DNA from: Nocardia nova SH22a
GTDB taxonomy: Bacteria > Actinomycetota > Actinomycetes > Mycobacteriales > Mycobacteriaceae
NCBI RefSeq assembly: GCF_000523235.1
Contig: NZ_CP006850.1
Span: 682,001-746,000 of the forward strand
Direction: 5' to 3'
Length of the DNA: 64,000 nt
Positions 5,416 to 30,575 of this stretch are shown in pieces. Below the pieces are notes generated by a model. The model saw only the letters and a list, made by a program, of their open reading frames with translations. It was not told where the DNA came from and ran no database searches. Each line of letters opens with the position of its first letter. Position 1 is the first letter of the stretch. The translations under genes and the position numbers were made by a program.

Positions 5416-6201
5416 ATGACCGACGTCGAAACTGCTGACGAAAAGATTCGATCCGCACAAGCCATCATCGATGCGCTGGATGCACCCGAAATTTCTCCGG
5501 ACAGTGCCGTAGAGGAAATTCACCAGGGATTGTTCGCACGGCTCGACCATTCCATCGGCGCGCTGTGGGAGGAGGCGAACCGCAGCCGGTTGTGGCGGCA
5601 TCTGCTCGAGGAAGACATCGACATCTCCCTCTACGGCGCGGTGATGACCCAGATCTACCACTACGCGCGGCACAACTCGATCAATCAGGCGGTCGCCGCC
5701 TTCCGGGCCACCCCCGAGGACACCGATCTGCTTCGCTACGCCTACAAGCACGCCCGGGAAGAACTCGGGCACGAGAAGTTCGCGGTGCACGACCTGCGCG
5801 CGATCGGCGTGCTCGGGCCCGACGAGCAGATCACCGAGAGCCCGGTGATCGCGAACCAGGCACTGGTCCGCTATCTGTACGGCGTCGCGCTGTGTGACGG
5901 CCCGATCCCGCGGCTGGGATATTCGTACTGGGCGGAATCGGTCGAGCCGCACATGCGTCCGCTGCTGCAGCGGCTGCGCGAGACCCTGGGGCTCACCGAC
6001 AACGAGATGACGTTCTTCGAGGCCCACGGCGACATCGACGTGCGGCACTTCGAGGACGTCAAACGGGCCATCACCCGTGCGGTCCGGACACCCGAGCAGG
6101 CCGATGCGGTGCACGGTGTGGCGGTCACGACCCTGTGGCTGACGATCTCACTGCTCGATCAGACCTACGATCGCTGGCTCGCCCGGAACTCGGAGCGATG
6201 A
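5416..6201 (+). CDS. Haem-oxygenase-like diiron oxidase (HDO), UndA-like
   Basis: This 261-aa all-helical protein is of the 'iron-containing redox enzyme' family (TENA/haem-oxygenase fold, non-haem diiron). Candidate metal ligands are E116 and H119 (EELGH), E174, and the signature Hx3Dx2H formed by H204, D208 and H211. As I recall the family, UndA uses E101/H104/E159/H194 with the same E-x2-H spacing and the same 58-residue gap to the next Glu. HDOs decarboxylate, fragment or N-oxygenate acyl or amino substrates; UndA makes 1-alkenes from fatty acids. ATG 5416 is chosen over the longer frame from 5332 because AGAGGAAC lies just upstream. Its stop overlaps the next start (ATGA), so it is translationally coupled to the PKS genes. 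Family call is firm; the reaction is inference. Confidence 0.8.
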
Positions 6202-7919
6202 CGACCACGGGGGACCCGACGGCAGGCCATATCGCGATCATCGGCACGGCCTGCCGTTATCCGGGCGATGTCGAGTCGCCGGAGCAACTATGGGATCTGG
6301 TCGCCTCCGGTCGCGACGCCGTCACCACGGTCCCCCGTGACCGAGGATGGCCGCTCGATCGGATCTATGCCCCGGGCGGGGCGGGGCCGGGCGGCACGTA
6401 CACCATCGAGGGTGGATTCCTGCGCGATCCGGCCGGATTCGACGCCGAATTCTTCGGTATCCGTCCCGACGACGCGGTCACGGTGGATCCGCAGCAACGG
6501 CTGCTGCTCGAGGTGGCGTGGGAGGCGATCGAGCGCGCCGGAATCGCGCCGGAGGAACTGCGCGGATCGGATACCGGCACATTCGTCGGGCTGGTCGGCA
6601 ACGACTACGGGGCACTGCTGGCGCGGACTCCGGAATTCTCCGGCCGGGTCGCGGCCGGAAATCTCGGGCAGTTCGCGTCGGGCCGGGTGGCGTGCACCCT
6701 CGGGCTGGAAGGACCGGCGATGACGCTGGACACCGGCTGCTCGTCGTCGCTGGTCGCGGTGCATCAGGCGGTGCGTGCGCTGCGCGGCGGCGATTGTGCG
6801 ATGGCGCTGGCCGGTGGTGCGACGGTCATGGCGACGCCGCAGTCGTTCATCGAATCGTCCCAACTGCGACTGCTGGCTCCCGATGCGCGCTGCAAGGCGT
6901 TCTCGGCCGCCGCCGACGGCACGATCTGGGCCGAGGGCGCGGCGATGATCGCACTGGAGCGCCTGGCGGACGCCCGGCGCAACGGACATCCGGTACTCGC
7001 CGTCATCGAGGGCAGCGCGATCACCCAGTGCGGGTCGACCACCGGGCGGCCACAGCCGACGGTGAGCGCGGTGGAACGCGTCATCACCCGCGCCCTCGCG
7101 GACGCGGGCTCGACGACCGACCGGGTCGACGCGGTCGAGGGCCACGGTCTGGGGGCCGTGCTCGGCGATGCGGTGGAACTGGAAGTGTTGGCGGCCACGT
7201 ACGGACGAGACCGGCTCCGGCCGCTGTGGCTGGGGACGGTGAAGTCCAACTTCGGCAATGCGCAAGCCGCGGGCGCGATCGCGGGCATCGTCAAGATGGT
7301 GGCGGCCCTGCGGCACGGTGTGCTGCCCGCCACCCTGCACTGCGAAACCCCTTCGGCGGACACGGGATCGGTGCGCCCGCTGAGCCGATCGCGCGGCTGG
7401 CCCGCCCGCGACGGCGTCCGCCGATGCGGGATCACCTCCCTCGGCGGCAACGGCACCTACGCGCACCTGATCATGTCGGCGGCCGACGATGGCGACGCCT
7501 CGATGGGCGTCCCCCTGCGGACCAGCTTCGACCGGCGCCGATACTGGCCGACCGGGATCGAGCCGTCGGCCGAACCGGCTGCGCACCGGACGGCAGCCGT
7601 GGCCGTCTCCCCGGTTCCGCGGAATCCCGCCGCATCCGAGGCGGACGGCGTTGCCGCACAACCGGATCCGGACACTCCGGTCCTCGAGGCCGTGCGAATT
7701 CTGACCGCGCGGATCCTGTGTCACGACGACGCCGCGGCGGTGTCCATGGACCGCACCTTTCACGATCTCGGATTCGATTCCATTGCCCGAGTGGAACTGC
7801 GCAATCGATTGGCCACGCATTTCGGCTGGGTGATCCCGGTGACCGTCACTCTCGATCACCCCACGCCGAGGAAATTGGCAACGCACCTGACAGAACGGAT
7901 CGCACCCCGCGTCGCGTGA
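6198..7919 (+). CDS. Type I PKS protein: ketosynthase-ACP didomain with altered KS active site
   Basis: This 573-aa protein has a ketosynthase domain (about 12-435) joined by a linker to an acyl carrier protein (about 490-570) whose phosphopantetheine Ser is S528 (GFDSI). The KS has the nucleophile C181 (DTGCSSSL, normally DTACSSSL) and the first His, H316 (EGHGLG). The second catalytic position, normally His in KSNIGH, is Asn354 (KSNFGN). The usual GTNAHV segment is also changed (NGTYAHL). There is no AT domain. Loss of that His usually abolishes decarboxylative condensation, so the KS may transfer or hold a chain rather than extend it. It overlaps the HDO gene by 4 nt and is followed after 23 nt by the large PKS gene. 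Confidence 0.88.
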
Positions 7920-7942
7920 CCGCCGCCTTCCGGGAGGGAACT

Positions 7943-10900
7943 ATGCAACCGACCACCCTGGTCGATGTCCTCACAACATGGGAATCCGAGCGATCGGACA
8001 CCACCGCGTTCCGATATCTCGAATCCGGTGAAGTGGACGGTCCCGTCACCGAACTCACCTTCGGCGATCTCGGCCGACGCGCCCGAGCCATCGCCGCCGC
8101 CCTGCGCGAACGGGGTGCGGACGGAACCCGGGCATTACTCCTTTTTCCGCCGGGACTCGATTTCGTCGCCGGTTTCTTCGGCTGCCTCTACGGTTCGGTC
8201 GCCGCGGTTCCCGCACCGATCCCGCAATCGCACGACATCGATCGCGTATATCGGCGCTTGTCCCGCATCGTCGCCGACGCCGATATCCGTGTCGTACTCA
8301 CCACGGCCGCGGTACTCCCGGAACTCGTCGGCGCCGCCGAACACTTTCCCGGACTGTCGGAACTCGAGTGGCTGGCGATCGACGATATCGGTGCTGCGCC
8401 GACGGCATCCGCCGATATCGTCGTCGCCCCCGACGACATCGCGTTCATCCAGTACACCTCCGGTTCGACCTCCGATCCCCGCGGCGTCGTCGTCCGGCAT
8501 GCCAATCTTCTGCACAACCAGCGGATCATCGCGGAAACCTTCGGGCACACACCCGAAGCCGTCGAGTGCTGCGACGGGAATCTGTTCGTCAGCTGGTTGC
8601 CGGTCTTCCACGACATGGGGCTGATCGGCCCGGTGCTGCAGTCGGTCTACATGGGCGCCGCCTGCGTGCTCATGTCGCCGCGGCATTTCCTGGAACGCCC
8701 GCAGCGCTGGCTCGAGGCCGTGGCGCGGCACGGCGCTCATACCAGCGGTGCACCGAACTTCGGATACGAACTGTGCCTGCGCCGACCGCCCTCGCCGGAC
8801 GATCCGCTCGATCTGAGCCGCTGGCGCGTGGCGTTCAACGGCGCCGAACCGATTCGCACCGACACTCTCGCGCGATTCGCCGACACCTTCGCCGCCCACG
8901 GATTCCGCCGCGATTCGCCGACGCCGGTGTACGGCCTGGCCGAGGCCACGTTGCTGGTGTCCGGCCAGCAGCGTCGACGGCCGCCGACCGTGGCGCCGCG
9001 CCCCGACGCACGCGCCGAGGTCGTCGGCGTCGGCAGCGCACCGTCCGGTATGTCGATCGTGATCGCCGATCCGGCCGGGTCGACCGAATGCGCGGACGAC
9101 GAGATCGGCGAGATCTGGGTGGCCGGAACGAGTGTCTGCGTCGGTTATCTGGGCGAGCCCGAACGCAGCGCGGGCACTTTCGGCGCCGTGCTCGCCGACG
9201 GTCGCGGCGGATTCCTGCGCACCGGCGATCTGGGGTTCGTGCGCGACGGTGAGCTGTTCGTGACCGGTCGGCACAAGGACCTCCTGATCATCGACGGTGT
9301 CAATCACTATCCACAGGACATCGAACTGACCGCCGAGCGCGCGCACCCCCAGGTCCGGGCGGGATGTGTCGCCGCGTTCTCGATCGACCGGGAGCAGGGC
9401 GAGACCGCGATCGTGGTCGCCGAGGTGAAGACCGACGATGCCGAGATCCTGGCGACGATCGCCGCGGCCGTTCGCGGCGCGGTCAGCCGGGAACACCGCA
9501 TCCGGGTCGGATCGGTCGAGCTGATCCGCCCCGGAACGATCCCGAAGACCAGCAGCGGCAAGATCCAGCGGCAGCTCTGCCGGAACTCCTATCTGGCGGA
9601 CGGTCTCGCGACCTTCCCGTCCGTCGCGGCCCGGGAGCCGTCGTCCGGGCCCGATCCTGCCGCGGACCGCGTGGCGTCGTGGCTGGTGAGGGCCGTCGCG
9701 GACGCGGTGGGGATGACGCCCGAACGGATCAGCCCGACCTGTCCGCTGGCCGACCACGGTCTGGGATCGCGCGAACTCGTGGAGCTGGCGACGGCACTGT
9801 CCGCGGAAATCGGGCGCCCGGTCGACACCGCGCTGCTGTTCGAATATCCGACGATCGCCCAGCTCGCCGCGGCCCTGTCCGGCGCCGGTCGGCGCGAAGC
9901 GCAGCCGGTGGTCATCGCACACCACGACGACCCCATCGCCATCGTCGCCGCCGCATGCCGATTCCCCGGTGGCGCCGACGATCCCGGGCAGCTGTGGCGG
10001 CTGCTGGCCGACGGGCGCAGCGCGATCTCCGAGGTCCCGGCCGGGCGGTGGGGTGATCACGATCGCTACCTCGGCGAACCGGGGGAACCGGGTAAGACCT
10101 ATACGCTCAGCGGCGGATTCCTTTCCGACATAACAGGTTTCGATGCCGACTTCTTCGGCGTCAATCCGCGGGAAGCTGCCGCCATGGACCCGCAACAGCG
10201 GCTGCTGCTGGAACTGGCGTGGGAAGCGCTCGAGCGAACAGCGGGAGATCCGGCCGCCTTCGCGGGCACGGCCACCGGCGTGTTCATGGGATTGTTCGGC
10301 ACCGGCTATCTGGACGGCGTGGACACCACGCAGTGGGACGGTTACACCGCTACCGGCGTGGCCGGTAGCGTCGCCTCGGGCCGGATCGCCTATCTGCTGG
10401 GGCTCGAGGGGCCCGCGGTGACCGTCGACACCGCGTGTTCGTCCTCCTTGGCCGCGGTGCATCTCGCGGCACGCGCCCTGCGCGACCACGAATGCGATGT
10501 GGCCCTCGCCGGTGGTGCGACGCTGCTGGTCTCGCCGCGATTGCATATCGAATTCAGCCAGCTCGCGGTGTTGTCCCGCTCGGGCCGATGCGCGCCGTTC
10601 GGCTCGGAGGCCGACGGTGCCGTGTGGTCCGAGGGTGGCGGCGTGATCGTCCTGAAGCGGCTGGCCGACGCCCAGCGCGCCGGTGACCGGGTGCTGGCGA
10701 TCCTGCGCGGCTCGGCCATGAATCAGGACGGTCGCAGCCAAGGGCTGCAGGCGCCCAGCGTGTCCGCGCAGGAACAGGTCATTCGCTCGGCGCTGTCGGC
10801 CGCCGATCTGACACCCGACGATATCGACTACGTCGAAACCCACGGCACCGGAACGGAAATCGGCGACCGCATCGAAGCCGCCGCCCTGGCCCGCGCCTTC

Positions 10901-13900
10901 GGATCCGCCCGCCGGGACCATCCACTGCGCATCGGCTCGATGAAGTCGAACATCGGTCACACCCAGGCCGCGGCGGGTGTCGCGGGCCTGCTGAAAACCG
11001 TGCTGTCGCTGCAGAACGAGCGGCTCGTGCCGTCGCTGCACAGTGCTCACCCCCGCGATGACATCGAGTGGACCGGCCTGCGAATTCAACAGTCGGACGA
11101 GCCCTGGCCCCGCGGCCGCCGGGTGCGGCGGGCGGGCGTCTCGTCCTTCGGAATCAGTGGCACAAACGTGCATGTGATCCTCGAGGAGGCTCCCGCACGA
11201 ACCGAACCGTCGCGATCGAGCGAACCGGCCGATATCCCGTGGGTCCTGGCGGCGCCGACACCGAGCGCACTCGCCGCCCAGGCACTGCGACTGCGGCAGC
11301 ATCTGCGCGATCGCCCCGGCGAGCACTCCGCCGACGTCGGCGTCACCCTCGCCCGGCGGCACCGCGACTTCCGGCACCGCGCGGTGATCATCGGCGCCGA
11401 TCGGGAATCGCTGCTGACGGGACTGGATCAGCTGGCGGCGCCGGATACCCCGGTCGGCTTGTCCGGCAACGTGGTTCGCGGGCATAGCGCACCGCTCGGC
11501 GCCCCGGTCCTCGTCTTTCCGGGGCAGGGGGCGCACTGGCCGGAGATGGCTGTGGCGATGCTGGCCTCCAGTCCCGTCTTCGCCGAGCATGTGCGGCGGT
11601 GTGCGCGGATTCTCCGGGAGTTCGTCGACTGGTCGCTGCTCGATGTCCTCGAGGGTTCCCCCGACGCCCCGGATCTGGAGCGCACCGATGTCGTGCAACC
11701 GGTGATGCTGTCGGTCAACACGGCGTTGTCGCAGGTGTGGGCCTCGGTCGGGGTGCGGCCCGCCGCGGTGATCGGGCATTCCCAAGGGGAGATCGCCGCC
11801 GCCTACGCCGCCGGCGCACTGTCGCTGCGTGACGCGCTGGAGCTGTCGGTCCGGCGCGGTACGGCCCTGGCCGAGCTGGATGGATCGGGCGGTATGGCGT
11901 CGATCGCGCTGCCCGCGGGCGAAGTGCGGGAACTGCTTTCGTCGTGGCCGGGCGCGCTGGAGGTCGCAGCGGTCAACAGCCCGACGTCGGTCGTGGTGTC
12001 GGGGGAGATATCGGCGGTCGAAAGTCTGCTGTCGTGGTGTGAGGACCACGAGATCCGGGCTCGCCGCATAGCGGTCGGCTATGCGTCGCACTCCGCGCAT
12101 GTCGACCGGGTCCGCGATCGGCTCGACATGACGGTGCGCCCGGCCGAGGCGACCTCGGTGGCGTTCATCTCCTCGGTCACGGGTTCGAGACTCGGCACCG
12201 GCGATCTCGACGGCGCCTACTGGTTGCGCAATCTCCGCGACACCGTGCGCTTCGACGATGCCGTCCGGGCCGCGCACGAATACGGATACCGGACGTTCAT
12301 CGAGGTGGGCCCGCATCCCATCCTGGTCGCCGCGCTCACCGAGACGATGGAGGAACTGGGCGGGAGCGTCTTCGTCGGCGCCACGACATCCCGATCCGCC
12401 GATGGAATGCCCGGCTTCCTCGCCTCGGCCGCCCGGCTCGACGTCAGCGGCGGCGTGGTGGACTGGAGACGATACTTCGGGTCCGCCGGGCAGCCGGTGG
12501 ATCTGCCGACGTATTCCTTTCTGCGCGAACATCATTGGCTCGAGCCGGTGCGCCGCCACGACGACGTGACCGAACTGGGACAGACCGAGGCCGGACATCC
12601 CATCCTCCGCGCGATCGTGTCGGCCCCGTGGTCCGGCGAGGTGATCCTCACCGGCAGCCTGTCGGCCGCAACCCTGCCGTGGCTGCGCGACCACGCGGTG
12701 CACGACACCGTCCTGCTCCCGGCGACGGCATTCGTCGACCTCGCGCTCCGGGCAGGACGGGAAGTCGACACGACGGCGATCGGGGAACTCGTACTGCGGG
12801 AACCGTTGATCATGCCGAAAACCGGGCGTATCCGGATCCAGGCAGTGGTCGGCGGCGGCGAATCCGGCGAGCGGACGATCGAGATCTACGCGCGCGACGA
12901 CACCGGCGGCTGGCGGCTGCATGCCCACGGTGTGCTGGCCGGTACGACGGTCTCCGTGCCCGAGGTCGGCCACCGATGGTCGCCATCCGGTGCGGCGGCC
13001 GATGTGGCGACGGTCTACGAGTACCTGACCGACCGTGGGTACCGGTACGGATCGGCCTTCCGTCTTCTGCGCGCGGTCCGCCACGGCGTCGGCGAGGTGT
13101 TCGCGGAGGTGGCGCTGCCTCCGGAGCGGCATGGCGAGGCCGCCGAATTCGGCATTCATCCGGCACTGTTCGACGCCTGCCTGCACGCCGCAGTCCTGCT
13201 CGAGGACACACCCCGGGTCGTGGTTCCGGTCGCCTGGACCGGCTGTGCCCTGCACGCACGAGGTGCGACGTCGTTGCGTGTGCGGGTGGCCCGCACCGGC
13301 GCCGATACCGTCACCGTCACCGCCGTCGATCTCGCCGGAAATCCGGTTCTCACGGCGGAGTCCGTGCTGACCCGCCCCCTCGACACCGGCCGACTCGGTG
13401 CCGGCGGATCCCTGTTCGCCGTCGAATGGCAGCGGGTCGCACCGGATCCGCCGTCCCCGACTCCACCGACGCGATGGCACGATCTGCCCGACGGACCCGG
13501 CCTACCGGCAATGGTGATGGTCGAAGCCGATTCGGGAACGACCGCCGAGGCGGTACACACAGGCGTCCGGACGATGCTCGCGATCCTGCAGTCGTTCCTC
13601 GACCGGGCCGAAACCTCGGACTCCCGGCTCGCCGTGATCACGCGTGACGCCGTCGCCCCCTCGGGCGTCGGCGCGGTCGATCTGGCCGGTGCGGCGGTCT
13701 GGGGCCTGGTCCGGTCGGCGCAGGCGGAGCACCCCGGCCGCATCGTCCTCATCGATATTCCGGGGACGGCCGCGGTGTCCGCGGAACAGGTCGGCGCCGC
13801 TCTCGCCGGGGACGAACCACAGATCGCGATCCGTGACGGGGTGGGCCACGTCCCGCGACTGGCCGCCCTACCGGCCGCACCCGCGCCGGGGCCGAGCGAG

Positions 13901-18667: not shown

Positions 18668-18771
18668 AAAAGTTGCCTATTGTCCGGGGTGGCGAGGGGA
18701 GTGCGGCACAATGATTATCGCCCTCACAATCACCGCGCGCACGCGTAGCGGGAAGTTCGGGGAGGCCGCGG

Positions 18772-19503: not shown

Positions 19504-19519
19504 ACCACGACCAACGGAA

Positions 19520-19544
19520 GAGGTATGGGATCGGCCCATACCTC
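19520..19544. repeat. Inverted repeat between hydrolase and AurF-like gene
   Basis: GAGGTATGGG and CCCATACCTC form a perfect 10-bp inverted repeat around the loop ATCGG. It lies in the 69-nt gap between the hydrolase stop (19503) and the diiron oxygenase start (19573). No T-run follows, so it could be a weak terminator, an mRNA-processing hairpin or an operator. Confidence 0.55.
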
Positions 19545-19572
19545 GGGTTCCGCTCATTCCGGGAGGGTTTAA

Positions 19573-20472: not shown

Positions 20473-20801
20473 TGTCCTTCGGCCACGGTCACGAGAACGA
20501 TCACTTCGACGGTTACGCGGGCGCCGCGGAATTGACGGTCGGCGAGACGCCGCTGCGGGTGGAGGTCACCATGCGGGGCTTCTTCCACCCGGCCGACGGG
20601 CGCTACCAGTGGTACGGCCGGGTCGTATCGGACGACCTCGCCGAATTGGTCGGGTCCCGCAAGAGCCAGGTGTCGATCCGCACCGAGCACGGATCGGCGT
20701 CGGCCACGGTCTGGGAACCCGATCTGTGGGGACGGTATCGGATCAGAGGTTTCGGCATGCCGCCGTTCGAGATCAGTGGAATAGCAGACGAGGAGAACTG
20801 A
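20472..20801 (+). CDS. DUF4873-type small protein
   Basis: This 109-aa soluble protein opens MSFGHGHENDHFDGYAG and carries the central pattern MRGFFHPADGRYQWYGR seen in DUF4873 proteins. In actinobacteria these occur next to, or fused with, flavin or diiron oxygenases. The function is not established. ATG 20472 overlaps the stop of the AurF-like gene (TGATG), so the pair is translationally coupled, suggesting an accessory or partner role. The MMPL gene starts 3 nt after its stop. Confidence 0.72.
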   Translation: MSFGHGHENDHFDGYAGAAELTVGETPLRVEVTMRGFFHPADGRYQWYGRVVSDDLAELVGSRKSQVSIRTEHGSASATVWEPDLWGRYRIRGFGMPPFEISGIADEEN

Positions 20802-20804
20802 GCG

Positions 20805-23177
20805 TTGGCACACGACGATTTGGGGATAGCCGAGGCCGATCCGCCATCGCTCGCCGATGAACCCGAGAAGTCCGCACGCGGGCCCGCCGCCCGCGTGGCG
20901 GCGTTCACGGGCCGTCATCGTCGCGCCATCGCCGCCGTCTGGATCGCACTGCTCGTCGTGGCCGCGCCATTCGCCGCCACGATCATGTCGGTGCTCAGCG
21001 GTGGCGGATGGGACGCCCCCGGATCGCAGAGCGCGGAAGCCGCTCGCGTCCTGTCCGATGCGAATCTCAACGGGCGCGGCAAACTCACCGCGGCCCTGGT
21101 GATCCGCGATCGTGACTACGCCGTGGCCGACAAGGAATTCGATACCCGCGTCCGGCATGCGATCGAAGTCGCCACCACGGACAAAGACCTGCCGGTTTCC
21201 TCGGTGTACGGCTGGTCGACCCTCGATCGGGGCACCCGGGACGAGTTCCTGGGTAAGGACCGGCACACGATCGTCGACTCCATCGGCATCGATCTCGACG
21301 GCGGTACGGCCCGCAACGTCCTTCCCGGAGTGCAGAATCGGCTGACCGACGCCTTCGCCGACGACGGTCTCGACGTGTCGATCGTCAGCCAGGACGCGTT
21401 CTTCGGCGCGCTGAACAAGGCGAGTCAGGACGATCTCATCCTGGCCGAGCTGATCACGTTCCCGCTCATCGCGCTGATCCTGATCGTGCTGTTCCGCAGC
21501 GTCGCCGCCGTGGCGGCCTCGATGGCGGTCGGGGTGACCACCATCGTCCTCACCTTGGGCGTCCTCTCGCCGATCGCCCACGCGACGGAACTCTCACTGT
21601 TCCTCGCCAACACCGCCACGATGCTCGGCCTCGGTGTCGGAATCGACTACTCGCTGTTCGTGATCGCGCGATATCAGGAGGAACTGGCGCGCGGGCGAGA
21701 AGTCGGCGAGGCGGTCGCGGTCGCGGTGCGCCGATCCGGTCACACGATCCTGTTCTCCGGAACGATCGTCCTGGCCTGTACCGCGACGCTGTTGTTCATC
21801 CACCTCAACATCGTGTTGTCCCTGGCCGTCGGCGCGATGACCGCCGTGGCGATCTCGATGCTGGTCTGCACGCTGCTGCTGCCGACATTGCTGCACATCA
21901 TCGGCAAGCGGATCAATTGGGGCCGACCGCGTTTCCTGCCCGGTCGTTCGGCCATCGGAGGCGTGACCGCCCCCAGCGGCCGGTGGCGGCGGTTCGCCCT
22001 GGCGGTCATGCGGCGGCCGATCGTCTTCGGCCTGCTCGGCGTCGTTTTCATGGGCGTGCTGTCCTATCCGGCCATGGGGTTGAAGACCTTCACCCCCGAT
22101 GTCGGCGTCCTGCCCGCCTCCGATCCGTCGCGTCAGGGCTTCGAGATCATGTCGGAGCAGCTGGGAGTCGGTGTTCCGTCTCCGGTGCGGGTCGTCGTGA
22201 CCAGCCCGACCTCGCTGGCCACCGACCCGGCCGCCGGTGGGGAGTTCGTGCACCTGGTCGACGAACTGGGTTCGATCCCGCACGTCGAACGGACGCTGTC
22301 CTACGTCAACGTCCTGCGGCAGGTCGCCGGGGACCCCGTGGCCGCGGGACGTACCTTCGCCGACGGCGGCTATTCCAAGGATGTCCGCCAATCGGTCCAG
22401 TACTTCCTCTCGAAGGACGGCCGCACCGGCGTCATCGAGTTGCGGACCGACTCGTCGGCGGGCGGTGACGGTTCCCACGAGGTGGTCAACGCGGCGCGCC
22501 AGGTCATCGACCACCGCCAGGGCTCGGCCCTGCATGTGGTCGTGGGTGGTGAGTCGGCCGAAGGGCTCGACGCCAACGTGCTGTTCGAGCAGAACCTGCC
22601 GAAGATCATCATCGCGATGCTGGTGGTGATATTCGTCGTGCTGATGGTGACATTCCGGTCGATTCTGCTGCCCATCAAGGCCATTGCGCTGAACGTGCTG
22701 TCGATCGGCGCGACCTTCGGAATCATGGTGCTGGTGTTCCAGCACGGATTCGGCACCGGCCTGCTGGGGCTGCATCACACCGGATACATGCAGAACTTCG
22801 TCCCGATCCTGATGCTGGCAATCCTGTTCAGCCTGAGTACCGACTACGAAGTGTTCCTGCTGAATCGGATCCGCGAAAGCTACATCCGCACCGGCGACAA
22901 CACGGGTGCGGTGGCCGAGGGCGTGCAGGCGACCGGTCCGTTGATCTCGGGCGCGGCCATCTTGATGATGGCGGTCTTCGGGGCCTTCGCCTTCACCGGC
23001 GTCGTTCCCATCGAACAGCTCGGCTTCGGTATGGCGCTGGGTGTGCTGATCGACGCGACGGTGGTCCGCCTCATCCTGGTCCCGGCCGCCATGCGGCTGA
23101 TGGGGAAGTGGAATTGGTGGTTCCCCGGTCGGCCGGACATCAGTCGAGGCGCAGTGGAATCCGAATCGCATTCCTGA
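20805..23177 (+). CDS. MMPL-family RND transporter
   Basis: This 790-aa membrane exporter shows the MmpL pattern of two halves, each with one helix, a large extracytoplasmic loop and five further helices. The proton-relay Asp-Tyr pairs are D281-Y282 (GIDYSLF) and D680-Y681 (STDYEVF), equivalent to the essential pairs of MmpL3. The N-terminal 35 or so residues are polar and cytoplasmic. MmpL proteins move lipids, glycolipids and lipopeptides across the inner membrane, so this is the likely exporter of the cluster product. The start is TTG 20805, with GAGGAG about 10 nt upstream; no closer ATG or GTG is in frame. Confidence 0.93.
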   Translation: MAHDDLGIAEADPPSLADEPEKSARGPAARVAAFTGRHRRAIAAVWIALLVVAAPFAATIMSVLSGGGWDAPGSQSAEAARVLSDANLNGRGKLTAALVIRDRDYAVADKEFDTRVRHAIEVATTDKDLPVSSVYGWSTLDRGTRDEFLGKDRHTIVDSIGIDLDGGTARNVLPGVQNRLTDAFADDGLDVSIVSQDAFFGALNKASQDDLILAELITFPLIALILIVLFRSVAAVAASMAVGVTTIVLTLGVLSPIAHATELSLFLANTATMLGLGVGIDYSLFVIARYQEELARGREVGEAVAVAVRRSGHTILFSGTIVLACTATLLFIHLNIVLSLAVGAMTAVAISMLVCTLLLPTLLHIIGKRINWGRPRFLPGRSAIGGVTAPSGRWRRFALAVMRRPIVFGLLGVVFMGVLSYPAMGLKTFTPDVGVLPASDPSRQGFEIMSEQLGVGVPSPVRVVVTSPTSLATDPAAGGEFVHLVDELGSIPHVERTLSYVNVLRQVAGDPVAAGRTFADGGYSKDVRQSVQYFLSKDGRTGVIELRTDSSAGGDGSHEVVNAARQVIDHRQGSALHVVVGGESAEGLDANVLFEQNLPKIIIAMLVVIFVVLMVTFRSILLPIKAIALNVLSIGATFGIMVLVFQHGFGTGLLGLHHTGYMQNFVPILMLAILFSLSTDYEVFLLNRIRESYIRTGDNTGAVAEGVQATGPLISGAAILMMAVFGAFAFTGVVPIEQLGFGMALGVLIDATVVRLILVPAAMRLMGKWNWWFPGRPDISRGAVESESHS

Positions 23178-23206
23178 ACCGCTATTCATCCGAGAAGGGG
23201 CTGGTT

Positions 23207-23758
23207 GTGAAACAGAAGGCCGTCATCTCCGAGGCCGTCCCCGGACGTACCGAACCGCCGCCGGACGGCTACACGGCCAGTGCGACGGTGCACGTCGATG
23301 CGCCCGCGGACCTCGTGTACGACATCGTGTCGAACGTGATCGGGTATCCGGAATGGGTCGCCGAGACCATCCGGTGCACATGGCGCGGTACCGATACCGA
23401 ACCGCGGGTCGGGGCTCGGTTCAAGGGCACCAACAAGTACCGCTGGCGGCGGTGGACGACGAAATGCATGGTGACCACCGCCGAACAGGGCCGGCACTTC
23501 GAGTTCAGCGTGGACCCCGTGCTCATCGCGAAGCTCTGGCGGCGAGAGCCGTTCGCGCTCTGGGGTTATCGGATCGTTCCCACGGCGAACGGCACCGAGG
23601 TCACCGAGTACACGCGCAGATTGGAGCCGCGGCTCGCGACGCTGTGGATGAATCGCATCCTGCTCGGTATCGGTGACCGCGACGTTCACAACCAGCACAA
23701 CATCGACAAGTCGGTCGTCTCGCTGAAGACCTATGCCGAATCGCGTGCCGCCGCGTAA
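23207..23758 (+). CDS. SRPBCC-family (polyketide cyclase/START-like) protein
   Basis: This 183-aa protein has the SRPBCC helix-grip pattern (ATVHVDAPADLVYDIVSN..YPEWV..). The fold binds hydrophobic ligands; members include aromatases/cyclases, lipid-binding proteins and detoxification factors. GTG 23207 is chosen because AGAAGGGG lies just upstream and homology-like sequence begins after it; the frame extends back to 23108 but overlaps the MMPL gene. It is the last gene before the 18-bp hairpin at 23843 and may bind or shape the cluster product. Confidence 0.75.
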   Translation: MKQKAVISEAVPGRTEPPPDGYTASATVHVDAPADLVYDIVSNVIGYPEWVAETIRCTWRGTDTEPRVGARFKGTNKYRWRRWTTKCMVTTAEQGRHFEFSVDPVLIAKLWRREPFALWGYRIVPTANGTEVTEYTRRLEPRLATLWMNRILLGIGDRDVHNQHNIDKSVVSLKTYAESRAAA

Positions 23759-23842
23759 GTCCGGAATTTCCGGTTCCTGACGGATTGTCGGTCGTAATGG
23801 CCGATCCGGGACGGTTCTCGAATAGTCCTGGCCGGGGTATTT

Positions 23843-23885
23843 CACCGCGATTATGGCGACGGGTGGAGTCGCCATAATCGCGGTG
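23843..23885 (+). terminator. Strong hairpin, likely terminator of the PKS/MMPL operon
   Basis: A perfect 18-bp inverted repeat (CACCGCGATTATGGCGAC and its complement) encloses a 7-nt loop, GGGTGGA. It starts 85 nt after the SRPBCC stop. A GU-rich stretch without a long T-run follows, as is usual for high-GC terminators. Confidence 0.65.
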
Positions 23886-24641
23886 TTCGGTTGTTGTGGA
23901 TATCCGTCGAACGAGCAACTGCCGGCCGGCTTCGCCGGAGTCCGGCGGTCCGTATCGGGCGGCTCTTGTTCGCCGAATGTTCGCCTCACTACTGATTCGG
24001 TAGGTCGACCTGTGGCTGATCTCGTTTGCGAACGCCATCGTGAAACCGGGCTGCCGAGCGGCCCGGTGACTCGTGCTGAGGGTGGTGTCGCCGATTTCCC
24101 TTGCGGTGGTGGTGATTTCACCGGGATCGTCCGTACCGACCGGTGCGTCACTGCGGGCGCACCGCTGACCGGTGACATGAAACCGCTTCCTGTGCTTAGC
24201 GATACATCTCGCAGCGTTGCCCGGATCCGACTGGACGCCGTATGTGCGGTAGCGAAAGGCGCCAGCGCTCAACGTATCCCGATCGTTGTCGAGTCGGCAC
24301 CCGCCTCGAGCGCGGACGGCTCCGGCGCCCCGGCTCGATGTGCCGGGATCTCCGATGGCGTCGAAGTTGCTGGCCTACCCGACGGGCCCCGCGCGGACCG
24401 TCGGATGCCCCTGTTGCCGGGGGCCTCGCCGTGCTGCAACGTCCGGTTCACCGCAGGTCCGGCGGTGTGCGTACGACACGCCGCTGGTCACGGGCGAAAC
24501 GCCGAGATGCTATGTGCCAGTGTTCAACTGATCTTGTTGAAGCAGTAAGAGCTGCCGTAACATCGCCTTCGAGCCCGCGCCGGTTGCAGCCTGCATTCAC
24601 GCGGTCAACGACGACTACGTGACAATCTGATTTGCGTGGGT
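23886..24641. other. Long gene-poor stretch upstream of the StrR-like regulator
   Basis: About 750 nt without a convincing gene. The open frames here (for example 23853-24548 plus) have no recognisable domain, no ribosome site and biased composition. A second GTTCAACTG occurs at 24522-24530, forming TTCAAC-N7-GTTGAA (24523-24541). The stretch probably combines a regulatory region and eroded sequence. Confidence 0.4.
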
Positions 24642-24670
24642 GTTCAACTGGGGATATTACCCGGTTGAAC
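24642..24670. promoter_or_regulatory. StrR-like operator GTTCAACTG-N11-CGGTTGAAC
   Basis: Two 9-nt half-sites, GTTCAACTG (24642-24650) and CGGTTGAAC (24662-24670), face each other across exactly 11 nt. The consensus I know for StrR and related pathway regulators is GTTCGACTG-N11-CAGTCGAAC, so both spacing and most bases match. The site ends 20 nt before the regulator start at 24691, where it could allow autoregulation. Confidence 0.7.
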
Positions 24671-24690
24671 ATGGTGACTATGGGGGCTTG

Positions 24691-25641
24691 ATGAGAGCTT
24701 GTAGGTCCGGAGAGAGTCGCGCCGAGGTCCCGCTATGCGTGTTGTTGCCAGCTGATTCACCGAGATCTGGGGGTGTGGATCCAGTTCATATCTCATTATT
24801 GGCCGAGTTGGATGCAACGGAGCTGCCGCCGATAGTCGTTCACCGTTCGACAATGCGAATAATCGACGGAATGCATCGATATCTCGCCGCGCAGCGGCAG
24901 GGTGTCACACTGATAGAGGTCGAATTCTTCGACGGCACCGAAGAAGAGGCATTCGTTCGAAGTGTCGAGCTCAATGTAAAACAAGGACTTCCGCTCTCGC
25001 TCAAGGATCGGAAGTCGGCGGCGCGGCGAATACTTCAATCCTCGCCGTCGCTGTCGGATCGCACGGTCGCGACATCGGTCGGTCTTTCCGCGAAGACCGT
25101 CGCGGCGGTTCGCAAGCAGTTGGAAGGAGACCTGGGACCGGCGACCCGAGTGGGTTCGGACGGGCGCAGGAGGCCCGTCAACCCCGAGATGGGCCGCAGC
25201 AGGGCGCGTGAGCTGCTACTACAGCAGCCGGATATGCCGTTGCGTTCGGTCGCGGCAGCGGCGGGTATATCAGTGGGGACCGCGCACTCGGTTCGCAAGG
25301 CATTGCGAGAGGGCGAGGTGGTGTCGGCGCCCGAGGAATCGGCACGGCAGCCGTCCACATCCCTGCTGGAACACGACGAATTCCAATCACTTCTGCAAAA
25401 GCTGCGCAATGATCCGTCCATCAGATTCAGCGAATCGGGTCGGCGACTGATCCTCTGGCTGCAGGATGTCGCGGTGCATCAATCGGAGATCGCGTCCATG
25501 GTCGACGGATTGGCGCTGCACTGTATGCCGACGGTCGCGCAATTGGCGAGGCATCACGCCGCGCTGTGGATCGCCGTGGCGGAGAAACTGCGGGAAACGC
25601 AGGACAATGGAAACATCGAATTGAAATCGAACTCCGCGTGA
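24691..25641 (+). CDS. StrR-like pathway-specific regulator (ParB N-terminal domain)
   Basis: This 316-aa protein has a ParB/sulfiredoxin-like N-domain (VDPVHISLLAELDATELPPIVVHR...IIDGMHRYLAAQ, about 25-115). Two helix-turn-helix segments follow (about 130-165 and 185-230: SVAAAAGISVGTAHSVRK) and a helical C-terminus. This is the layout of the StrR/NovG family of antibiotic-cluster activators. ATG 24691 is preferred to the GTG at 24640: the operator 24642-24670 would otherwise lie inside the gene, and the extra N-terminal residues are not family-like. It stands between the two halves of the cluster and is the best candidate for its activator. Confidence 0.8.
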   Translation: MRACRSGESRAEVPLCVLLPADSPRSGGVDPVHISLLAELDATELPPIVVHRSTMRIIDGMHRYLAAQRQGVTLIEVEFFDGTEEEAFVRSVELNVKQGLPLSLKDRKSAARRILQSSPSLSDRTVATSVGLSAKTVAAVRKQLEGDLGPATRVGSDGRRRPVNPEMGRSRARELLLQQPDMPLRSVAAAAGISVGTAHSVRKALREGEVVSAPEESARQPSTSLLEHDEFQSLLQKLRNDPSIRFSESGRRLILWLQDVAVHQSEIASMVDGLALHCMPTVAQLARHHAALWIAVAEKLRETQDNGNIELKSNSA

Positions 25642-25738
25642 ATTCTTGAAATCGCAGCGGGCCCTGACGGTACGTTCACCTGTTGGTCACTGAATATTCA
25701 CAGTGGCATGACCTACGATTCGAAAGGCGGTGTCGGCT
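25642..25738 (+). promoter_or_regulatory. Promoter region of the SCP2/ACAD/E1/KAS operon
   Basis: GTTCACCTG at 25674-25682 matches the StrR-like left half-site in 8 of 9 bases. Just downstream, CACTG-N8-CAGTG (25688-25705) surrounds the palindrome TGAATATTCA. The ribosome site GAAAGG lies at 25722-25727. The half-site suggests the same regulator may act here, but no 11-nt-spaced partner is present. Confidence 0.35.
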
Positions 25739-26125
25739 GTGCCCATTTTCAAGTCAGTCGAGCAGGTCGAAGAGGTTTACCACCATTTGTTCAAGATTCT
25801 TTTGAGCGATGACGAGGTGATCGCCAAGGCGAAAGCGGTGGACCGCACCCTGCATCTCATACTCACCAAGCCGGACGTGGAATTCTTCGTCACCCCCGAG
25901 GGTGTGGTTCCGGGACCCGACGGCCGCAAGGAAATCAAGGTCAAGATGTCCTGCGACACCGGACATGTGCTGTGGACCGGGGATCTCCTGGTGCCGCTGG
26001 CCGTGGCGACCGGCAAGGTCCGGATCAAGGGGAACGTCGCAAAGGTTCTGGAGTTCGTGCCGGTGTTGCGCCCGGCATTCGACGTGTATTCGACCATCGC
26101 CGCCGAACACGGCATCGTTGCCTGA
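25739..26125 (+). CDS. SCP2-like lipid/sterol-carrier domain protein
   Basis: This 128-aa protein resembles SCP2 sterol-transfer folds: an N-terminal helical part (VEEVYHHLFKILLSDDEVI), a beta-sheet with EIKVKMSCDTGHVLWTGDL, and a C-terminal KGNVAKVLEFVPVLRPAF helix. Such domains bind acyl chains or acyl-CoA and may present them to enzymes. GTG 25739 is chosen over GTG 25730 because GAAAGG ends 11 nt before it, against 2 nt for the other. It is the first gene of a five-gene operon; the acyl-CoA dehydrogenase starts 10 nt after its stop. Confidence 0.6.
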   Translation: MPIFKSVEQVEEVYHHLFKILLSDDEVIAKAKAVDRTLHLILTKPDVEFFVTPEGVVPGPDGRKEIKVKMSCDTGHVLWTGDLLVPLAVATGKVRIKGNVAKVLEFVPVLRPAFDVYSTIAAEHGIVA

Positions 26126-26135
26126 GAGGGGACTC

Positions 26136-27350
26136 ATGTCCATCACCGACGTTTCACTGTCCGATCTTCGTGAGGGCGCCGAAGATATCGACGGACTCCG
26201 GCAGGCGATCCGCGATTTCGCGGACACGGTCGTGCGTCCCCGGGTGCTGGCCAACGATGCCGCTCCCGCAGAGGAATTCGACTGGGAACTCGTCCGTGCC
26301 GGTCATGCTCTCGGCCTGTTCCGGTTGGTTGTTCCCAAGGAGTTCGGCGGGCTCGGCCACGGCGTGATCGGTGTCGCGATCATGATGGAGGAGCTGGCCG
26401 CCGTCGACGCCGCCACGGCGCTGATGTTCGGCTCGACCATGCTGGGCCAGGTCCCCGTGCTGCTGTCCAACGACCCGCAGTTGCAGAGCCGGTTCCTGCC
26501 GCTGTTCGCGGGCGACGAGCCCGTGCTCGCCTGCAACGCCATCACCGAGGACGAGGCCGGCTGCGATCTGCTGATCCCCGAATTCGCCGGGCACGCACAG
26601 AATGTCATGACCGCGCGGCGGGACGGCGATCACTACGTCCTCAACGGCCGCAAGCGGTTCATCAACAACGCGATCGTCTCCACCTTCGGCTCGGTCTACG
26701 CGAACCTCGAGGGTCATGAGGCAGCGGACGGCCTGACGGCGTTCATGGTGGACTTCGACAGCGAGGGCGTGGTGCGCGGCCCGGTGGCCGACAAGATGGG
26801 ATATCGGGCCTGTCTGGGCAGCGAGCTGATCTTCGACGACGTCCGGGTTCCCGTCGAGAACGTGGTCGGCGGGGAGGGCGCGGGTGTGATCATCAATGTC
26901 GCCCAGATGAACATGGCCCGTGCCACGGTCGCGGCCCTGTCCACCGGAATCGCCCGCGGCGCATTCGAATTGGCGAAGGACTGGTGCGCCGAGCGGATCC
27001 AGGGCGGCGTGCCGCTGTACAAGCATCAGTTCTCGGCCCGCAAACTCGCCGAGATGGCGTCGAAGGTGGAAGCGTCTCGCTTGCTGTACCTGGACGCCGC
27101 CGAGGTCGCCGACAACGAGATCCCGGTTCCCGCTTACAAACCCGCCGTCGCGAAGCTGTTCGCCGACCGGGTCGCGATCGAGGTCGCGACCGAGGCGATG
27201 TCGCTGATGGGGGCGCGTGGTTACATCCGCGAATTCGGTATGGAGAAGTTCGTCCGGGAGTCCTTCGGTGCCCGGATCTACGAGGGCACTCCCGAAGTAC
27301 TGGCACTGGCGATCACCGAGGCGCTGTATTCCGACGACGACGACTTCTGA
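26136..27350 (+). CDS. Acyl-CoA (or acyl-ACP) dehydrogenase
   Basis: This 404-aa flavoenzyme of the acyl-CoA dehydrogenase family has an N-terminal helical domain, a middle beta-domain (CNAITEDEAG, FINNA) and a C-terminal helical domain. The probable catalytic Glu is in ARIYEGTPEV near residue 384, the usual position for short/medium-chain enzymes. It oxidises the alpha-beta bond of a thioester, passing electrons to ETF. Within this cluster it could introduce a double bond into the FAAL/PKS-derived chain while bound to ACP or CoA. ATG 26136 follows GAGAGGGG. Confidence 0.88.
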   Translation: MSITDVSLSDLREGAEDIDGLRQAIRDFADTVVRPRVLANDAAPAEEFDWELVRAGHALGLFRLVVPKEFGGLGHGVIGVAIMMEELAAVDAATALMFGSTMLGQVPVLLSNDPQLQSRFLPLFAGDEPVLACNAITEDEAGCDLLIPEFAGHAQNVMTARRDGDHYVLNGRKRFINNAIVSTFGSVYANLEGHEAADGLTAFMVDFDSEGVVRGPVADKMGYRACLGSELIFDDVRVPVENVVGGEGAGVIINVAQMNMARATVAALSTGIARGAFELAKDWCAERIQGGVPLYKHQFSARKLAEMASKVEASRLLYLDAAEVADNEIPVPAYKPAVAKLFADRVAIEVATEAMSLMGARGYIREFGMEKFVRESFGARIYEGTPEVLALAITEALYSDDDDF

Positions 27351-27378
27351 GCAGTTCACAGCGAGACGAGGACGTGAC

Positions 27379-28329
27379 ATGTCCAATTCGACCCCGGGAA
27401 TTCTGCGTCTGCACCCCGATCACGGATCGGCTGTTCAGCGCTACGTGAGTGACATCTGCCGGATGCAGGACCGGCTTCGTTATCGTGGTTTGCCGTCCGA
27501 GCTGGCGACCGTCGAGGGCGTGCACGTGACGGATCGGCACGGTGTGACCACGGTCGTGGCGCGCACCAGCGACATTCCGCATCGGTACCTGCTGGGTATC
27601 GCGGGATTCCGGCTTTCGCAGTATGTCCGAGTCGGATTCATGAGTGCCGAGATGGCGGCGCGGGACGCACTGTTCTGCGAGCCGTTGAACACGATGAATC
27701 CGGACGACTGGCACGTCGTCTGTCTGGACACCGACACCGGGGAGATGCTGGGCTATGTCGAACTGGCCAGCAACGGCGGCCCCGCGGAATCGGTCCGGAG
27801 CAAGCAGCGGCGACTGTTTCCGGTCGAGGAGGTGCACGGCATCGACATCTTCGAGACAGTCGGTGCGCCAGCGGATCTCAACACGGAGAACGTGCGCGAG
27901 GTCAAGCGGATGATGCACGCGGAGACGATGTCGGACCGGCGGCTGCGCTACCGGGTGAGCATCGAGCTGATCCTCGGTCTGCAATGGGTCTGCGAATCCA
28001 CCACCCCCCGGGTCCGGGCCGTGATCGGTGACGCCGAGGCACACGTCGCCCTGCGGCACATCGTCACGGTGGGGCTGAACCCGACCGTGGTCGGCGGAAC
28101 CACGCCGCGGCTTCCGGCGGGACATCTGCTGCACCCCTGCTACGAGATCCGGGAATTGGTCGAACCGTTCTACGGCGAGGTTCCCGCCGACATCGGGCTC
28201 CGCCGTGAGGTCGCGGAGAAGGTGGTGTCGGATCCGAACATCCTGGCCAATCTCCGGCTGCTGGTAGCGCAGGACATGAAGAGCCGGGTGACCCGGGTCG
28301 ATATCGGCTCCGCGGTCGAGGCGGTGTGA
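27379..28329 (+). CDS. Unrecognised protein, possibly GNAT/FeeM-like acyltransferase
   Basis: I do not recognise this 316-aa protein with confidence. It is soluble and mixed alpha/beta, with no signal peptide or membrane helix. A stretch around HVVCLDTDTGEMLGYVELA looks like the central beta-strands of GNAT or FeeM/LuxI-type acyltransferases, and REVKRMMHAETMSD precedes a long helix (YRVSIELILGLQWVCES). If it is such an enzyme, it would join the acyl chain to an amine. It is bracketed tightly by the acyl-CoA dehydrogenase (28-nt gap) and the E1-like gene (1-nt overlap), so it belongs to the pathway. Confidence 0.45.
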   Translation: MSNSTPGILRLHPDHGSAVQRYVSDICRMQDRLRYRGLPSELATVEGVHVTDRHGVTTVVARTSDIPHRYLLGIAGFRLSQYVRVGFMSAEMAARDALFCEPLNTMNPDDWHVVCLDTDTGEMLGYVELASNGGPAESVRSKQRRLFPVEEVHGIDIFETVGAPADLNTENVREVKRMMHAETMSDRRLRYRVSIELILGLQWVCESTTPRVRAVIGDAEAHVALRHIVTVGLNPTVVGGTTPRLPAGHLLHPCYEIRELVEPFYGEVPADIGLRREVAEKVVSDPNILANLRLLVAQDMKSRVTRVDIGSAVEAV

Positions 28330-29327
28330 TGGCGATGACCGACACCGCGGCGACCGGATGGGACCCGGACAGCTTCTACCGTGAGCTGACGACCAGGAAC
28401 AAGGGGCTCGTCCCGGCCCGTCAGCAGACCGCGCTCGCCCGCGCCCGGGTGCTGATCGCGGGCTGCGGCTCGACCGGGGGCGCGGCCGCGGAACCGCTGG
28501 CCCGGCTGGGGGTGCAGCGGTTCATCCTGGCCGACAACGGCGAGTTCGAACTGAGCAACCTCAACCGTCAGCACGCCACGACGGTGGACGTCGGACGGAA
28601 CAAGGCGGCCGTGGCCGCCGACCGCATCCGTGCGGTCAACCCGTTCGCCGAGGTCGAGGTCGATACCGGCGGCATCACCGATGTCAATGCCGACGATTTC
28701 GCGCGCGGCTGCGACGTCGTCATCGACGGGGTCGATGTGACCGAGCTGTCCGGCTGGCAGGCCAAGCTGCGGCTGCACGAGGCCGCAGCGGCGGCGCGCA
28801 AGCCGGTGCTCAGCGGCTACGACATGGCCGGTGTGCAGTACGTCCGGTTCTACGACTACCGGCGGCCGGGCGCCCGGCCGCTGGACGGGCGCGTGACGGC
28901 ACGGCACCTGGCGACCCTGGACGTCCCGGCGATCATGTTGCGGGTGGTGCCGGCACGTTTCGCGCCGCTGGAGATGATCCGCAACCTGCGGGACAACATC
29001 CACGACCCGGACTACCACGTGCCCCAATTGGTCTACGCCGCATTGGCTTTCGGCACGCTGTCGGCCCGGATGGTCGCGGAGGTGCTGGCGGGGGACGGTA
29101 TTCGCCGTCATACCGCCATCGACGTGCACGACGTGGTGCGCACGCGGCGGCAGAAGGCGACCGTCCGGGCGCATCGCGCGGTCCTGCTGCTCAGGTCGGT
29201 GCCGCAGGTGATCCGGTTCAGCGGGCCGGGCAGCCATCGCCTGCCGGGGGAGGCGACGCAGGAAGAGGTGGCCGCGGAATCGCGCGGCACGTTCGAATCG
29301 GCCAAGAGCGATGCCGGGAGTGTGTGA
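28329..29327 (+). CDS. E1-like adenylyltransferase (ThiF/MoeB/HesA family)
   Basis: This 332-aa Rossmann protein has the nucleotide loop GCGSTGG (45-51), the acidic D69 after the second strand, and NLNRQ (77-81) with the Arg that contacts ATP phosphates. The family adenylates a C-terminal carboxylate of a ubiquitin-like or peptide partner, or cyclises or dehydrates small substrates. No CxxC zinc pairs and no ThiS/MoaD-like partner gene are visible, so it may adenylate a small molecule or peptide. It overlaps the upstream gene by one base (ATG 28329; GTG 28326 also possible) and sits 3 nt before the KAS gene. Confidence 0.75.
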   Translation: MAMTDTAATGWDPDSFYRELTTRNKGLVPARQQTALARARVLIAGCGSTGGAAAEPLARLGVQRFILADNGEFELSNLNRQHATTVDVGRNKAAVAADRIRAVNPFAEVEVDTGGITDVNADDFARGCDVVIDGVDVTELSGWQAKLRLHEAAAAARKPVLSGYDMAGVQYVRFYDYRRPGARPLDGRVTARHLATLDVPAIMLRVVPARFAPLEMIRNLRDNIHDPDYHVPQLVYAALAFGTLSARMVAEVLAGDGIRRHTAIDVHDVVRTRRQKATVRAHRAVLLLRSVPQVIRFSGPGSHRLPGEATQEEVAAESRGTFESAKSDAGSV

Positions 29328-29330
29328 GTC

Positions 29331-30575
29331 ATGGCAGAGGGACCCAGGGGATTCCGCGACGTCGTCGTGACGGCGCTGGCCGCCACGACATCGATCGCGG
29401 GTGATGTGGACGCGACGTGGAAGGGGCTGCTGAACGGCGAGAGCGGGATCGACGTACTGGAGGACGATTTCGTCGCCGATCACGACCTGCCCGTCCGGAT
29501 CGGCGGTCAGCTGCGGGTCGCGCCCGAGATGTCGCTGAACCGGACGGATATCGACCGGCTGTCCTACGTCGAGCGGATGGCCCTGGTGCTCGGCCGCGAG
29601 GTGTGGCGCAATGCGGGTGATCCGGAGGTGGACGGTGACCGCCTCGGAGTCGCCATCGGCACCGGACTCGGTGGGCACGACGCCTACACCGATGTGCACA
29701 ACGGGCTTCGCGACGGCGGCTACCAGCGGGTCTCACCCCTCGCGATGCAGATGATGATGCCCAACGGCCCGGCGACCTGTGTCGGCGTCGAACTGGGCTG
29801 CCGGGCCGGGGCCAACACGCCGGTGTCGGCCTGCGCGTCGGGCTCGGAGGCCCTCGCCAACGCATGGCGCATGATCGTCATGGGCGACGCCGACATCGTC
29901 GTCGCGGGAGGGGTGGAGGGCCGGATCGACGCGCTGCCGATCGCGGCGTTCTCGATGATGCGCGCGATGAGCACCCGCAACGACGATCCGAAGGGGGCGT
30001 CGCGCCCGTTCGACGCCGAGCGCGACGGGTTCGTCTTCGGCGAGGCGGGTGCGCTCCTGGTCGTCGAGTCCGAGGAGCACGCCAGGGCCCGCGGCGCCGA
30101 GATCCACGCCCGGCTCCTGGGCGCGGGCATCACTTCCGACGGTTTCCACCTGGTCGCTCCCGATCCGGACGGCCGGGGCGCGGCCCGCGCGATGACCCGG
30201 GCGATCCAGACCGCGGGACTGTCGAAGTCCGATATCGGACATGTGAACGCCCATGCCACCGCCACATCCGTCGGGGACGTCGCGGAGGCGCGGGCGATCA
30301 GGTCCGCGATCGGCGACCACGCCTCGGTCTACGCGCCGAAGTCCGCGCTCGGTCACTCCATCGGAGCGGTCGGGGCACTGGAATCGGTGCTCACCGTGCT
30401 CAGCCTCCGCGACGGGATCATCCCGCCCACGCTGAACTACGAAACTCCGGATCCCGAGATCGGCGACCTCGACATCGTCGCTCGCGAACCTCGCCGTGGC
30501 CGGATCGACCACGCCGTCAGCAACTCCTTCGGCTTCGGCGGCCACAACGTCGCCCTCGCCTTCGGCCGGTACTGA
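29331..30575 (+). CDS. Beta-ketoacyl-ACP synthase (KasA/KasB-like)
   Basis: This 414-aa KAS I/II-type condensing enzyme resembles mycobacterial KasA/KasB ([33 protein letters not shown]). The catalytic Cys168 lies in VSACASGSE. The His residues are in NAHATAT (normally NAHGTGT) and KSALGHSIG. It would elongate an acyl-ACP with malonyl-ACP. Its place at the end of the five-gene operon suggests a duplicated, dedicated KAS that builds the starter acid or an extra chain, rather than the housekeeping mycolate enzyme. The operon ends at the hairpin at 30595. Confidence 0.9.

Follow-up and report, generated by a model that had tools for sequence, protein, structure and literature searches.

Which product could be made by a block of lipid-type genes that, taken as a whole, matches no described pathway? 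The block lies in a 64,000-nucleotide stretch of Nocardia nova SH22a (the window; contig NZ_CP006850.1, positions 682,001 to 746,000) and joins polyketide synthase (PKS) genes headed by a fatty acyl-AMP ligase (FAAL) to two diiron-type oxygenase genes, an MMPL exporter gene and, at its 3′ end, consecutive genes for an SCP2-like protein, an acyl-CoA dehydrogenase-type flavoenzyme (ACAD), a protein that we call K and an E1/ThiF-like protein (E1). A sequence-only reading had found no known pathway for the block and had missed the nature of its 3′ half. Our comparisons indicated that the first claim is true of the full gene set but too strong for the core, because the 3′ core is shared with the lipothrenin (lit) cluster, which belongs to a recently described iron-binding lipid pathway (PMC10616846), and its logic is akin to that of the tyz and trz pathways. 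Rather than generic lipid tailoring genes, the 3′ half is probably an N-acyl amino acid cassette. We hold it to be moderately probable that a FAAL-PKS chain is transferred by K onto an amino acid, activated by E1 (with ACAD), N-hydroxylated by an AurF-type enzyme and exported by the MMPL protein. The core cassette is already known; what appears to be new, judging from gene content, is its combination with a modular FAAL-PKS, a haem-oxygenase-like diiron-type protein (HDO) and an SRPBCC protein.

The gene for K, which had been left without a clear name, emerges as the key gene. K had no family match in domain scans, and its predicted model, compared with known folds, resembles acyl-homoserine-lactone (AHL) synthases and FeeM; K is therefore probably an N-acyl amino acid synthase. 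The E1 start overlaps the K stop codon (TGATG), and the best match of E1 in the Protein Data Bank (PDB) is TcdA (E = 3.9e-11). At the sequence level, D137, NLNR and PQ of E1 are conserved with TrzS-type ThiF domains (26–28% identity), and its invariant Asp is probably the residue altered in TrzS D217A, a variant reported as cyclase-deficient (PMC12856293, PMC10404671). The SCP2-like protein scores 19.3 bits in Pfam against a cut-off of 21.3, and its AlphaFold model (pLDDT 85.9) resembles known structures of SCP2 proteins (lowest E = 1.6e-5). The ACAD, 76% identical to that of Streptomyces varsoviensis and 67% to its counterpart in a second Nocardia genome (G139), carries a YEGT motif, which we take to hold the catalytic Glu.

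E1-type proteins also occur apart from K. With 22 of 34 candidates scored, the host genome (8.35 Mb, a single contig) gave two E1-type matches among those listed, the cluster E1 and a protein that reads as MoeZ-like; the TrzS-type ThiF-oxidase fusion, frequent in other Nocardia, was unseen in it. Four other Nocardia stretches (L101, L102, L103 and L105) hold standalone E1 proteins of 396–417 amino acids that are 29.5–31.5% identical to the cluster E1 over most of the latter's length. K had no match in the fetched stretches around these four, and the E1 of L105 is accompanied by an ACAD-like gene (28% identity).

The 3′ half, comprising the SCP2-like, ACAD, K and E1 genes, is a recurrent actinobacterial cassette. 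To follow it, 19 loci were compared: the window, 16 Streptomyces places (L056–L071), one locus from the same genus (G139) and one from the same order (G092). Eighteen were picked for K and G092 for E1, and the loci are related, such that the counts represent non-independent events. By tblastn, K and E1 were found in 19/19 loci, ACAD in 18/19 and SCP2 in 16/19; G092 was one of the three loci without a tblastn SCP2, and in G092 Pfam detected one. K itself is rare. Whole-genome searches, which scored the best first-look candidates only, recovered it in two of the 150 same-genus genomes (the host and G139), in 15 of 392 Streptomyces genomes (16 places) and, among 396 genomes drawn across the phylum, only in the host, whereas a pattern scan of an 84,980-genome collection confirmed 1 of 16 stretches (S. 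varsoviensis); since the whole-genome searches found more K, the pattern scan is insensitive. Among 5.8 billion proteins, a word-based search picked out 13 relatives of K (E ≤ 0.001), including a 99% copy, and K had no match in the plasmids searched. The E1 of G092 was the sole close E1 among 98 other genomes searched.

The companions of the cassette differ from locus to locus. An AurF gene and a strong FAAL match co-occur in the same four loci (window, L057, L058 and G139), and ribonucleotide reductase (RNR)-like and GMC genes in three (L057, L058 and G139). A beta-ketoacyl-ACP synthase (KAS; ACP, acyl carrier protein) was found in 7/19 loci and a strong MMPL match in 3/19, with one more weak; the window, L071 and L056 have MMPL next to the cassette. 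Varied tailoring genes accompany the Streptomyces cassettes: nitroreductase (2/19 loci; L059 and L062), TauD (3/19; L068, L069 and also G092) and amidase (strong in 3/19, L064, L066 and L067, as labelled by sequence reading, with one more weak). This variety suggests that the cassettes make a family of N-acyl amino acid products yet to be explored.

The lit cluster of Streptomyces aureus LU18118, as reported (PMC10616846), makes an N-hydroxy-Thr amide of hexadecanedioic acid and includes litI (124 aa), litJ (ACAD), litL (hypothetical, 311 aa), litM (ThiF) and litN (AurF). At L057, the order FAAL-RNR-ACP-GMC-SCP2-ACAD-K-E1-AurF parallels the published litD–litN order (PMC10616846, Table 5). Judged by position and by likeness to L057-type loci, the window has the order SCP2-like–ACAD–LitL/K–LitM/E1 together with a FAAL and a LitN-type AurF that is 55–56% identical to the AurFs of three lit-type loci; gene order and AurF identity would thus tie the two clusters together. 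In the same report, deletion of litL abolished all of lipothrenins 1–14, deletion of litM left the l-Thr form alone with the d-allo-Thr products gone, deletion of litN removed N-hydroxylation, deletion of the FAAL gene litD lowered output without abolishing it, and deletions of litE, litH and litP each had minor effects. The products there include d-allo-Thr and dehydrobutyrine forms, and the role of LitL was left as a "vague hypothesis" (PMC10616846).

In the pathway that we favor, the FAAL would adenylate a fatty acid and load it onto the fused ACP, and one methylmalonyl-type extension followed by reduction and dehydration would give a 2-methyl-2-enoyl chain, as domains and motifs suggest. 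K would transfer this chain to an amino acid, a role to which its predicted fold and the litL deletion in the syntenic cluster point, and E1 would adenylate the carboxylate of the resulting N-acyl amino acid and close an oxazolone, as TyzB and TrzS do. Oxazolone rings readily lose alpha stereochemistry. Alpha epimerization via the ring would account for the d-allo-Thr and dehydrobutyrine forms of the lit products and would explain why the d-allo-Thr products are lost upon litM deletion. The ACAD, in the place of the tyz/trz flavin desaturase, may join E1 in activation, cyclization and epimerization; AurF would N-hydroxylate the amide, as the litN deletion indicates for lipothrenin, and the MMPL protein would export the product. 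The suggestion that the chain is oxidized by diiron enzymes and exported is borne out insofar as an exporter and both diiron families are present. More tentatively, and with a rather low probability, the cassette could be a general actinobacterial device: a LuxI-fold enzyme would form N-acyl amino acids and a TcdA-like E1 would convert them to oxazolones, with alpha inversion through the ring preceding N-hydroxylation by AurF. In the window the FAAL-PKS, rather than fatty-acid synthase alone, would supply the chain, free of any nonribosomal peptide synthetase (NRPS). The predicted fold of K provides a structural ground for assigning LitL as the amide-forming enzyme, LitM becomes linked to ThiF-type oxazolone cyclases, and the unexplained lit epimerization becomes a testable azlactone mechanism. 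The window shows the cassette joined to a modular PKS which, if the pathway is true, would build a polyketide N-hydroxy-amino-acid lipid with no NRPS.

Several points weigh against this reading. The link of the window cluster to lit rests on gene order, gene lengths and a Streptomyces look-alike locus rather than on the ON169987 sequence, and no counterpart of the RNR-like LitE, the GMC protein LitH or the DUF4873 protein LitO could be detected among the cluster genes. At L070, E1 lies ~6 kb from K and ACAD was not found. By hhalign, the K family and presumed TrzA homologues showed no sequence relationship (probability 0.2%). The authors of the lipothrenin report propose dehydration rather than oxazolone formation for LitM, and litJ deletion had a minor effect (PMC10616846), which leaves the role of ACAD uncertain.

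An alternative, which we regard as unlikely, is that the end product is itself an acyl-oxazolone lipid of the tyrazolone or tryptazolone kind, in which ACAD replaces the nitroreductase desaturase and the substrate of AurF and HDO is the acyl chain or that of another step. The oxazolone papers (PMC10404671, PMC12856293) describe tyzABC, trzAS of Mycobacterium tuberculosis and oxzAB as acyl-oxazolone pathways, in which TyzB/TrzS-type ThiF proteins cyclize N-acyl amino acids; the rings are opened by acid and by alcohol. A protein of N-acyl amino acid synthase fold next to a ThiF protein and a flavoenzyme follows the same logic, two cassette relatives (L059 and L062) carry a nitroreductase, and mmpL9 flanks the tyz locus in those papers (PMC10404671, PMC12856293), as MMPL stands beside the cassette in three of our loci. 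Against this, no nitroreductase-family flavin oxidase was found in the window cluster, and its AurF is of the lit type, for which the published product is a hydroxamate.

The features of the cluster are listed in Table 1. Pfam and NCBIfam bear out the domain list of the sequence-only reading for most genes. DUF4873, coupled there with the AurF-like protein, was found neither in the AurF open reading frame (ORF) nor in the next ORF (20432–20860), and the supposed StrR-like regulator gave weak helix-turn-helix (HTH) matches and nothing stronger.

Table 1. Features of the cluster, in window positions.
Feature	Position	Strand	Basis
Inserted block (cluster)	5135..30595	n/a	blastn against congener G002 (stretch L073)
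HDO-fold (haem-oxygenase-like) diiron-type protein	5416..6201	+	PF14518
KS-ACP	6135..7919	+	Domain scan and motif reading
FAAL-ACP-KS-AT-DH-KR-ACP	7943..15214	+	Pfam/NCBIfam domains
KS-AT with docking domain, without ACP	15204..17954	+	Pfam/NCBIfam
TetR-type regulator	17962..18645	-	Domain scan
Alpha/beta hydrolase	18772..19503	+	Domain scan
AurF-type diiron N-oxygenase, LitN-like	19573..20472	+	PF11583, 270 bits
MMPL exporter	20805..23177	+	Domain scan
SRPBCC/polyketide cyclase-like protein	23108..23758	+	Domain scan
ParB/StrR-like putative regulator	24640..25641	+	Weak HTH matches; label by sequence reading
SCP2-like small protein, LitI position	25730..26125	+	Pfam sub-threshold and AlphaFold model
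ACAD, LitJ position	26136..27350	+	Domain scan
K, LuxI/FeeM-fold N-acyltransferase (predicted), LitL position	27379..28329	+	Predicted fold
E1/ThiF-like adenylating cyclase (predicted), LitM position	28329..29327	+	PF00899
KasA/KasB-type KAS	29331..30575	+	NF005916, 668 bits (cut-off 560)
KS, ketosynthase; AT, acyltransferase; DH, dehydratase; KR, ketoreductase.

The upstream PKS genes are consistent with the methyl-branched, unsaturated chain that had been proposed, which the FAAL priming, the AT motifs GHSQG and YASH, and a KR (motif LDD) and DH with no enoyl reductase (ER) domain seen in the domain scan of the FAAL-PKS protein would together produce; we take YASH in this first AT to be a methylmalonyl-type motif. 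The two flanking PKS proteins look different. In KS-ACP, the third KS catalytic residue is changed from His to Asn (KSNFGN), and the protein is probably non-condensing. In KS-AT, Gln replaces the usual Arg (among 120 listed homologues, Arg in 114, gapped in 5 and Gln in 1, a Nocardia nova protein) and Ser replaces the oxyanion Gln (Gln in 106/120, gapped in 4, other in 10), and this AT probably loads no extender, given the roles that we presume for these residues and for the KS His. Because of these changes and KSNFGN, KS-ACP and KS-AT may help to transfer or release the chain instead of elongating it.

Among the loci compared, these PKS genes are peculiar to the window: no HDO, SRPBCC, ParB-like gene or modular PKS was found in the other 18 loci, where weak KS-type matches in six (91–99 bits) fall on those loci's own KAS genes and three gave weak hydrolase matches (36–40 bits). 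Since the PKS and HDO genes of the window sit 9–22 kb upstream of K, further flanks were compared: up to 20 kb more on the upstream side of 15 Streptomyces loci (7.8 kb for L061; L064, the sixteenth, had none left) and up to 20 kb more on the downstream side of 11. These added flanks gave no HDO, PKS, AurF, SRPBCC, ParB-like or MMPL match; FAAL-type matches in them were weak and confined to two places, where they reached 111 and 66 bits. A FAAL on contig C33 of S. varsoviensis was rejected as a member of its K locus because K lies on contig C22.

This distribution, together with a minus-strand TetR gene that separates the PKS from AurF, would suit two adjoining functional units, one for a FAAL-PKS/HDO lipid and the other for an N-acyl amino acid pathway of its own, with no common product, a reading that we consider quite unlikely. 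Against it, the entire block represents one insertion at one site: relative to the congener G002, 25,461 bases (25.46 kb) are inserted at 5135–30595, where G002 has 44 bp, with homology ending at 5134 and restarting at 30596. The gene block is therefore a genuine cluster, cleanly inserted relative to congeners, and the earlier coordinates (5416..30575) were close to the true unit. The site lies between dusB on one side and an acyl-ACP desaturase gene/tRNA-Lys on the other; dusB is present in all 18 same-genus genomes searched (the host excluded), G002 having the closest DusB (96%), and in 14 of these congeners the stretch retrieved around dusB also shows the desaturase gene, whereas in 4 it does not. 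AurF and MMPL, companions of the cassette elsewhere, sit between the two halves. Furthermore, near-identical database homologues from both halves, K (99%), HDO (100% over 90%) and KS-AT (94%, under the name Nocardia nova), share one listed value for the longest contig, 256,180 bases, and all differ slightly from the window's own sequence.

The HDO ORF spans 5332–6201, the start at 5416 being an internal Met, and H110, E144, H147, H232, D236 and H239 are invariant in 10 aligned rows. The label "UndA-like HDO" is sound as to family (PF14518) and unsupported as to UndA identity, since at E ≤ 0.1 the PDB gave one match alone, 3dde, whose function is annotated as unknown; UndA-type terminal-alkene formation was set aside because support from 3dde and the relatives stops at the superfamily level. 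A Gln at the ExxH position was dropped as a ligand mutation, being nearly invariant across the family. An HDO relative (~47% identical) occurs on Pseudomonas plasmids (23 of 27 plasmid records matched); on one (L034, 8001–8624) it adjoins a phenylacetate-CoA-ligase-family gene, with anthranilate-synthase-like genes nearby.

HDO, AurF and SRPBCC could act jointly to make an N-N (diazeniumdiolate) head group like that of the ham (fragin/valdiazen) cluster, a reading that we judge highly improbable. In the ham report (PMC5878181), the cluster includes a protein of haem-oxygenase-like type, a homologue of AurF and a polyketide cyclase, and all three kinds are present in the window at the Pfam level. 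In the window, however, the three genes are scattered, no NRPS (A-T-R) was found among the cluster ORFs domain-scanned, and AurF is closer to lit types, its likeness to ham being judged at the family level. NRPS, cupin and aminotransferase were unseen in the window cluster, which has the FAAL-PKS and the K/E1 cassette instead. Compared with four further AurF genes of the host, the cluster AurF is 25–32% identical (a fifth among the six places was left out); two of the six AurF-type places on the host contig are neighbors at 4.058 Mb.

As to the remaining genes, two Streptomyces carry next to this cassette an MMPL protein 49–51% identical to that of the window. The cluster KAS shares 77% identity with a KasA/KasB-type paralogue of the host and 47–50% with the KAS of Streptomyces cassettes, and orthology with the latter is consequently unproven; besides the cluster KAS, the host contig holds four KasA/KasB-type paralogues, 62–77% identical to it.

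In mycobacterial FAAL-PKS-MmpL lipid clusters, a type I PKS primed by a FAAL is accompanied by an MMPL exporter. The window cluster has both in common with them and differs in its amino-acid cassette, and the Pks2 and Pks13 family models score far below their cut-offs. As in tyz, trz and oxz, a predicted N-acyltransferase of AHL-synthase-like fold has a cyclase of ThiF type and a flavin oxidoreductase as neighbors; K is of the same fold class by prediction, hhalign showed no sequence relation of its family to presumed TrzA homologues, and ACAD stands where those systems have a nitroreductase-type oxidase. Neither of two papers checked links the lit and oxazolone families: a count of "oxazolone" in the lipothrenin text (PMC10616846) gave 0, as did one of "lipothrenin" in the tryptazolone text, and a single paper in the searched library mentions "lipothrenin". 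Compared with the lit cluster, the window cluster additionally carries KS-ACP, the FAAL-PKS fusion, KS-AT, HDO, SRPBCC, the KasA/B-type KAS and MMPL.

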